Source of the DNA: Natronorubrum halalkaliphilum
Lineage (GTDB): Archaea > Halobacteriota > Halobacteria > Halobacteriales > Natrialbaceae
Direction of reading: 5' to 3'
Length of the DNA: 64,000 nt
Assembly: GCF_009834785.1 (NCBI RefSeq)
Contig: NZ_WUYX01000038.1
Coordinates: forward strand, 64,947-128,946
This document shows, one piece after another, positions 34,274 through 35,436 of this stretch; positions within the stretch are counted from its first letter, which is position 1, and each line of letters opens with the position of its first letter. The notes beneath the pieces were generated by a model that saw only the letters and a list, made by a program, of their open reading frames with translations, made no database searches and was not told the origin of the DNA. The position numbers and the translations under genes were made by a program.

Positions 34274-34399
34274 GGGGCGGCCGCGTCCTAAAGGCTACGA
34301 ACCGTTGCTCGAGATGAGAGTTCGAGGCCGGCTCCGGGACGCTGAAACCGTTCTTTGACCTTCCTCAAGGCATATAGGCCGTCTAACCGATGTCCGACC

Positions 34400-35122
34400 G
34401 TGAAGCGACGTACGCTCCTCGCCGCAGTCGGTGCGGGAACGGTCGCAACAGCCGGCTGTCTCGACGACTCGCGCGGCGATTCTGACGGTCAAAACACAAA
34501 CACGAACGTGACCGCGAACGCGGGCGCGACCTGCGACACCGACCGCACCTACGAAACGTGTAGTCGGTTGCTCATCTCGGCCGATTCGTTCCCCGAGCCC
34601 GTACGGTGTGAGATCGACGCGGCGCTCGAGGAGTCGGGCTACACGACCGCTGGCGGGTTCCTGCTCGAGGGCGCGATGGACGTCGAGCACGCCTACGTTC
34701 GCAAGAACGACACCGCGTACGAACCGAAGATCACTGAATCCGCGTCGGCGTCCGACGACGACGATGAGCGGACCCTCACCCTGATCGAACAGGACCGACC
34801 GACTCGACGACGCGTCCACGAGATGCGGATCGAGAACGCGACCGACGACAAGCGGACGGTCGAGCTCGCCGTCGTCCGCGAAGACGACGACGAGACCGCG
34901 GTCGACGAGACGCTCTCGCTCGAGGCCGGCGAGCGCGAGACGGTTCCCGTCTCGGACGTGCTTGGCCGGTACGAGTTCGAGGTGTCGGACGACCGCGGAC
35001 TCGAGGCGACGCTCGAGTCCAGGCTGGGCGAGTACTTCCAGTTCGATGCGCTCGTCGTGGACGACGACGCCAGAGTGCTCGAGTCGACGGCGGACGTGGC
35101 CCCCTGTCCGTGGGAGCGCTAA
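34400..35122 (+). CDS. Tat-exported lipoprotein, function unknown
   Basis: The likely start is GTG at 34400 (VKRRTLLAAVGAGTVATAGC), giving 240 aa with a twin-arginine motif and lipobox. After the anchor is a low-complexity NTNTNVTANAGAT linker. The rest resembles haloarchaeal lipoproteins with a beta-rich domain (RRVHEMRIENATDDKRTVEL and SLEAGERETVPVSDVLGRYEF). Cys at about residue 40, 49, 67 and near the C terminus could form disulfides. Function is unknown. Confidence 0.8.
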   Translation: MKRRTLLAAVGAGTVATAGCLDDSRGDSDGQNTNTNVTANAGATCDTDRTYETCSRLLISADSFPEPVRCEIDAALEESGYTTAGGFLLEGAMDVEHAYVRKNDTAYEPKITESASASDDDDERTLTLIEQDRPTRRRVHEMRIENATDDKRTVELAVVREDDDETAVDETLSLEAGERETVPVSDVLGRYEFEVSDDRGLEATLESRLGEYFQFDALVVDDDARVLESTADVAPCPWER

Positions 35123-35232: not shown

Positions 35233-35241
35233 ATTACAAAT
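35233..35241 (+). promoter_or_regulatory. TATA-like box before the tRNA-like gene
   Basis: TTACAAATA lies about 28-36 nt upstream of the first base of the acceptor stem, suitable for archaeal transcription start shortly before the tRNA-like sequence. Confidence 0.4.
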
Positions 35242-35268
35242 ACGAAGATCGCCTTCGAATACGGGTAC

Positions 35269-35356
35269 GGAAGGGTCGCTCAGCGGCAGAGCACCGCGGT
35301 GCCACTTGGCCCGCGGCGGCATTTCGCCTCGTGGCGTTCAAATCCCACCCCTTCCG
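35269..35356 (+). tRNA. tRNA-like gene with abnormal anticodon arm (functional tRNA or pseudogene unresolved)
   Basis: 88 nt. GGAAGGG (35269-35275) pairs with CCCTTCC (35349-35355), followed by G. The D arm GCTCAGCGGCAGAGC is standard. The T arm GTGGcGTTCAAATCCCAC is standard apart from one extra C in the stem. The central arm is not: CCGCGG and CCGCGG enclose an 11-nt loop TGCCACTTGGC, so no 7-nt anticodon loop forms; GCC (Gly) is visible but misplaced. A short GGC-ATTTC-GCC stem sits at the variable loop. No CCA is encoded. It could be an unusual long-variable-arm tRNA, a tRNA with a tiny insertion, a tRNA-like ncRNA or a pseudogene. Confidence 0.5.
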
Positions 35357-35436
35357 CTCGCGGTTGCGGTTGCAGTTGCAGTTACGGTAGCGGTTGCGGG
35401 TATGATCGGTCCGTGATTGCGGTCGCGGTTGGGGTC
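35357..35436. repeat. GCGGTT/GCAGTT hexanucleotide repeat tract
   Basis: Directly after the tRNA-like gene the sequence runs as degenerate hexamers (GCGGTTGCGGTTGCAGTTGC and onward to about 35400, resuming at 35413-35436). Similar hexamer repeats occur inside several genes of this window. Nothing else is evident until the family B repeat at 35524. Confidence 0.6.

Follow-up and report, generated by a model that had tools for sequence, protein, structure and literature searches.

A stand-alone gene for a very probably non-decoding, tRNA-shaped RNA in Natronorubrum halalkaliphilum and across Halobacteriales

A stretch of 64,000 nucleotides (nt) from Natronorubrum halalkaliphilum (NCBI RefSeq assembly GCF_009834785.1, contig NZ_WUYX01000038.1, positions 64,947 to 128,946 of the forward strand), referred to here as the window, contains at positions 35269-35356 an element that folds like a transfer RNA (tRNA) but has no anticodon loop. 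Comparison of its sequence with that of its homologues indicates that a non-decoding RNA of tRNA shape, which occurs across Halobacteriales, is very probably (probability, about 0.92) encoded here by a stand-alone gene. An earlier note on this DNA had proposed, among other readings, a new tRNA-like RNA with a non-decoding role. The homologues are in agreement with that proposal: the acceptor, D, and T elements are invariant, and the arm that takes the place of the anticodon arm is hypervariable in sequence and length but always closed.

Divided into its structural segments, the plus-strand sequence reads GGAAGGG TC GCTC AGCGGCA GAGC A CCGCGG T GCC ACTT GGC CCGCGG C GGC ATTTC GCC TC GTGG C G TTCAAAT CCCAC CCCTTCC G. 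The 88-nt length and coordinates given in the earlier note, as well as the 7-base-pair (bp) acceptor stem, the D arm, the T loop, the 6-bp stem of CCGCGG paired with CCGCGG, and the additional C of the T stem, were all found in the sequence. The 11-nt loop that had been described on top of the 6-bp stem was not open, however; it adds a bulged U and a GCC/GGC helix closed by an ACUU tetraloop, which makes an arm of about 9 bp. The predicted cloverleaf with variable arm has a folding energy of -45.6 kcal/mol for the 91-nt stretch and beats 200 of 200 shuffled sequences (z = -3.56). The pattern of the 5' shell occurs once in the window, compared to 0.01 occurrences expected by chance, and the element is single-copy in the genome.

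The elbow-forming D and T loops (G18 G19 and UUCRANU) and the 7-bp acceptor stem are those of a tRNA. The arm of about 9 bp with a tetraloop is not the 5-bp anticodon stem and 7-nt loop with U33 of a decoding tRNA, and the T stem is not the uninterrupted 5-bp helix of a decoding tRNA but carries a bulge of one nt. Both departures set the element apart from tRNA. A canonical 5-bp/7-nt arm with U33 is possible in only 5 of 148 distinct homologues, compared to all 31 of the tRNAs that ARAGORN found in the same genome. The interval between the D and T arms is 28 to 56 nt long in the 148 homologues and in every case contains a hairpin (5 to 15 bp; median, 9 bp), with loops mostly of 3 to 6 nt. The arms of the homologues L166 and L173 are just 13 to 14 nt long, with UUCG or GCU loops (CCACC-UUCG-GGUGG type). 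The two strands of the T stem are 6 and 5 nt long in 148 of 148 distinct homologues, whereas none of the 31 genomic tRNAs has the bulge. The bulged stem is spelled GUGG-C-G/CCCAC in most Natrialbaceae and GCG-U-GG/CCCGC or, rarely, GUG-U-GG/CCCAC elsewhere. At one locus of an incomplete genome (G045; L123, 3001-3171), the shell is intact and about 80 nt, flanked by a hairpin, are inserted in the variable arm.

Hardly any variation is seen among the 148 homologues in the acceptor stem (GGAAGGG/CCCTTCC), the D arm, or the T loop, although these shell features were largely demanded by the search pattern, which left the 5' strand of the T stem, the discriminator, and the middle free. Identity is 96 to 98% in the columns of the shell versus 36 to 50% in the flanks outside the promoter region. 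In the broad alignment, A3, changes on both sides were found for 10 pairs. The number of double-change cells in A3 was 56, compared to 21.9 ± 5.2 in shuffled alignments, none of 500 of which reached as high a count, and the signal collapsed when the partners were slid. The acceptor pairs do not vary and thus provide no covariation evidence; their fixed sequence points to sequence-specific recognition. The acceptor of the related sequence L180 is GGTAGGG/CCCTACC, with pairing kept. The earlier note had named mutations spread over the acceptor and T arm in relatives as the mark of a pseudogene, and on this criterion the homologues speak against a pseudogene.

A promoter-like element is also conserved. 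A TATA-like box had been reported at the right distance from the gene, and ATTACAAATA was indeed found upstream (Table 1). The upstream consensus of 82 Natrialbaceae-type loci is CGATTACaAATACGaA, and the AT-richest 8-mer begins between -36 and -34 in 76 of the 82. A TATA-like element at -36 to about -30 is present in both locus groups (Natrialbaceae and other families).

At an E value of ≤0.01, DNA matches were obtained in 10 of 10 genomes of the genus, in one of them solely as a decayed copy. Matches across the family were found in 108 of 125 genomes and 27 of 29 genera, a conservation that places the element far beyond chance. When only good Natrialbaceae genomes are counted, 98 have the DNA match and 13 lack it. 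Two covariance models, R1, which was built from the family, and the broader R2, were used to extend the search across the order. Because haloarchaea that lack the RNA still yield R2 matches of 46 to 56 bits, which are tRNA-Ser(UGA), a counting cut-off of about 60 bits was adopted. Roughly 180 to 190 of 392 sampled Halobacteriales genomes scored above it, a figure estimated from the search listing, with twenty genomes checked. Named carriers include Natronorubrum, Natrinema, Natronococcus, Natrialba, Halorussus, Haladaptatus, Halobellus, Halogranum, Halegenticoccus, Halorientalis, and Halalkalicoccus; in some genomes the gene is present two or three times.

When 84,980 species genomes were scanned with the pattern, 71 contigs matched; all of those named to genus, family, or order were haloarchaeal, and one was titled only "Euryarchaeota archaeon". 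No homologue outside Halobacteriales was found in a phylum-wide R2 search, in which the matches beyond the order were confined to a methanogen family and one other. A wider range into the methanogen family (R2 scores of 59 to 67 bits) was considered and rejected, as 7 of 7 inspected matches from outside the order were ordinary tRNA-Ser. Viral contigs scanned with the pattern at two gap ranges yielded no carrier, and phages gave only short matches to ordinary tRNAs. There was one match among plasmids, on the Halorientalis plasmid pHOS100. This copy (L339, 6001-6090) precedes an orc1/cdc6 replication gene by about 600 nt and is unannotated in the PLSDB gene table.

Table 1. Positions in the window of the tRNA-like RNA gene, its structural parts, and its promoter-like element
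Feature	Positions	Strand	Remarks
TATA-like promoter element ATTACAAATA	35233-35242	+	-36 to -27 from the 5' end of the RNA
tRNA-like RNA gene	35269-35356	+	88-nt cloverleaf including the unpaired G73 equivalent; CCA not encoded
Acceptor 5' strand GGAAGGG	35269-35275	+	Paired with 35349-35355; same sequence throughout alignments A1 and A3, with pairing in 100% of cells
D arm GCUC-AGCGGCA-GAGC	35278-35292	+	A14, G15, G18 G19 pattern
Anticodon-arm equivalent CCGCGG-(U bulge)-GCC-ACUU-GGC-CCGCGG	35294-35316	+	Closed hairpin without anticodon loop; changes on both sides in four pairs (A1) and six pairs (A3)
Long variable arm GGC-AUUUC-GCC and flanks	35317-35330	+	Covarying pairs 53:67 and 57:63 in A1; some lineages without the helix
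T arm GUGG-(C)-G / UUCAAAU / CCCAC	35331-35348	+	Bulged C at 35335
Acceptor 3' strand CCCUUCC and discriminator G	35349-35356	+	Discriminator G in 125, A in 22, and C in 1 of 148 homologues

The genes next to the element differ between families. In Natrialbaceae the tRNA-like gene is located between a divergent Rad3-like helicase gene and the genes for DUF7531 and DUF5784, and it is kept at loci from which the DUF7531 gene has been lost (L104, L112, L118, and L127). Many other families have it immediately 3' of sdhA (succinate dehydrogenase flavoprotein), and in others it is found beside unrelated genes. The RNA thus moves as a gene of its own. Decayed copies with a 5-bp acceptor, no D arm, and an intact bulged T arm remain at the ancestral helicase locus in two genomes (L124, 3001-3082, and L125, 3001-3082; G007 and G009). 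G009 also has an intact copy at a new locus, whereas G007 has the decayed copy alone. As read from these genomes, the history is that of an independent RNA gene that is under selection and yet can be dispensed with.

ARAGORN reported no tRNA and no transfer-messenger RNA (tmRNA) in the window, and Rfam gave no match at gathering thresholds and no tRNA match there even at an E value of ≤10. Positions 35269-35356 were not among the 42 tRNAs listed by a genome-wide search with RF00005. Some homologues from other families pass the RF00005 gathering cut-off as generic tRNA (40 to 48 bits), and the ARAGORN labels for homologues are tRNA-???, Gly, Arg, or Val. Comparison of the shell with the tRNAs of the same genome revealed no clear parental isotype. 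Rfam 15 has no dedicated family that matches the RNA, and no paper describing it was found in a literature search that had most subscription journals outside its reach.

Several known classes of RNA were considered and rejected. A tmRNA does not fit an interval between the D and T arms of no more than 56 nt, folded as hairpins. Bacterial Y RNAs (YrlA), which are bound by Ro/TROVE proteins, resemble the window RNA in presenting a tRNA-like module within a non-decoding RNA. However, only 12 of the family's 125 genomes have TROVE proteins, and none was found in the window's genome. Haloferax t-elements, tRNA-like sequences that are cut by tRNase Z and RNase P and act as a processing signal directly upstream of 5S rRNA (PMC4326828 and references 36 and 37 therein), are likewise tRNA-like structures in haloarchaea. 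The window RNA differs in being a complete cloverleaf of four/five arms that has a promoter of its own and is not beside 5S rRNA; the neighbours are helicase/DUF7531 or sdhA genes, and Rfam matches no rRNA in the window. Archaeal selenocysteine tRNA (tRNA-Sec) is also non-standard, with a variable arm, and is used with special factors. It has a 9/4 acceptor/T architecture and a 7-bp D stem (PMC7609411), whereas the window RNA, with a 7-bp acceptor, a 4-bp D stem, and no anticodon, has neither the 13-bp acceptor domain (9/4) nor the 7-bp D stem that this class requires.

It can be practically excluded that the element is a decaying tRNA pseudogene at an old locus. The loss of the anticodon and the lack of any RF00005 score in the window are what such a pseudogene would show, and the ancestral-locus copies in G007 and G009 are truly decayed. 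Those copies, however, demonstrate how decay looks, and intact members are unlike them: the shell is near-invariant over many genera despite variable flanks, the arm is covarying and always paired, and the promoter is conserved. Strong conservation across the order speaks against the decaying gene that the earlier note had entertained, even though two relatives of the same genus hold a decayed copy at the old locus. There is even less to recommend a decoding tRNA with a small intron in its anticodon loop, removed by bulge-helix-bulge splicing. Haloarchaeal tRNAs do have introns, such as that of the 108-nt tRNA-Met of this genome, but the arms of L166 and L173 could not accommodate an anticodon arm of 17 nt, no anticodon or exon sequence is conserved, and the homologous stems are long (median, 9 bp) with loops mostly of 3 to 6 nt. 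The tiny unspliced insertion suggested in the earlier note is incompatible with those 13- to 14-nt arms. A riboswitch-like 5' leader is hardly credible either. Although most Natrialbaceae have a DUF7531 gene downstream in the same orientation, its start is several hundred nt away, it has been lost at the four loci mentioned above that keep the RNA, and the neighbours are different in other families.

The tRNA shape probably serves a purpose other than decoding. The RNA would be transcribed from the gene's own TATA box and, because the acceptor and elbow are intact, may be matured as a tRNA is, with RNase P and tRNase Z trimming the ends and CCA being added. A dedicated protein could then read the invariant acceptor stem and elbow in a sequence-specific manner, while EF1A and the ribosome would not accept the RNA on account of its T-stem bulge and its lack of an anticodon. 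We consider the identity of the RNA and this class of mechanism, taken together, to be fairly probable. The most likely use, suggested tentatively, is that of an anticodon-independent aminoacyl acceptor or carrier for a reaction outside the ribosome. It can be proposed just as tentatively that the RNA is a dedicated tRNA without an anticodon, present order-wide, which receives an amino acid but serves solely outside the ribosome, or that it forms a new tRNA-shaped ribonucleoprotein (RNP), and that the T-stem bulge evolved to exclude it from translation.

Ranked next after the carrier is a structural decoy or scaffold that binds or titrates a tRNA-handling or regulatory protein via the acceptor and elbow and is not aminoacylated, a possible but rather doubtful function. 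The conserved shell, the closed and hypervariable distal arm, the T-stem bulge, and a discriminator that is G or A would all suit a decoy. It would also work like tRNA-Other of Bacillus cereus, a pseudo-tRNA outside translation that may be the tRNA-like element of a regulatory RNA (PMC3399842). Among known systems tRNA-Other is the most similar in working, but the tRNA shape is the only defining feature in common: tRNA-Other carries an anticodon for Trp and is present in some Bacilli, whereas the haloarchaeal RNA has no anticodon loop, has a T-stem bulge, and is found across an archaeal order. Furthermore, acceptor pairs would be expected to covary if the target of a decoy were the general tRNA enzymes, and they are fixed; a dedicated protein is required. 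It seems unlikely that the RNA accepts serine, even though seryl-tRNA synthetase (SerRS) could charge it without an anticodon through a long variable arm and G73, both of which most members have, and tRNA-Ser(UGA) of haloarchaea and methanogens is the nearest ordinary tRNA in model scores (48 to 56 bits in haloarchaea). A73 is present in 22 of 148 homologues and the variable helix is missing in some lineages (e.g., Halobellus), so that serylation fails as a family-wide rule. In addition, tRNA-Ser(UGA), which shares the long variable arm and G73, has a canonical anticodon arm, an unbulged T stem, and a different acceptor (GGTGGGG/CCCCACC or GCCGGGG/CCCCGGC).

Some observations weigh against the favoured reading, that of a non-decoding, tRNA-shaped RNA matured like a tRNA and read by a dedicated protein. 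The acceptor is invariant rather than covarying, and covariation backs only the arm hairpin, the variable arm, and one T-stem pair. With a discriminator that varies between G and A and a variable arm that some lineages are missing, no one synthetase identity can apply to all members. The homologue found with the covariance model in G217 (L182) has no T-stem bulge. Many haloarchaeal genomes are without the gene and it is decayed in one genome of the genus, so that it is not essential everywhere.

The variant without a bulge in G217 (L316, 3925-4087) has the acceptor GAAAGGG/CCCTTTC and directly adjoins a tRNA-Gly gene. Tandem units of about 75 to 150 nt were found downstream of the tRNA-like gene at L266 (2097-2540), L165 (3086-3345), L258, L260, L276, L183, L173, L252, and other loci. 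Each unit contains a long hairpin (GGGATTYGA...TTCRAATCCC) whose last part is a copy of the 3' end of the tRNA-like gene itself. At least one such unit is present at 20 of 62 loci outside Natrialbaceae versus 1 of 80 within the family. In 9 of 12 haloarchaeal genomes, hairpins of the same family are found a short distance 3' of ordinary genes for tRNA (Leu, Glu, Gly, Arg, Asp, and Ala), whereas the control gave 0 matches (L320, L322-L324, L326-L330, and L332-L338). The family is a hairpin repeat associated with tRNA 3' ends and possibly a small mobile element.

In the window, a tandem repeat of the hexamer GCGGTT (6.7 copies; 35360-35399) begins 4 nt past the RNA, and TGCGGT-rich tracts of a similar kind are found 3' of the tRNA-like gene in other Natrialbaceae. 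A plus-strand open reading frame of 255 amino acids (34355-35122) between the helicase gene and the RNA gene matches no Pfam family, and none of the relatives compared has a homologue of it in this position.

No described family of free-standing archaeal RNA genes was found that keeps the whole acceptor/elbow shell of a tRNA, and its sequence, but drops the anticodon. If the reading is confirmed, the annotation of many haloarchaeal genomes misses this RNA or mislabels it as a tRNA of undetermined type. Confirmation would also raise the testable question of what reads a non-decoding tRNA, for which non-ribosomal aminoacyl transfer, a regulator that mimics tRNA, and a new RNP are candidates.
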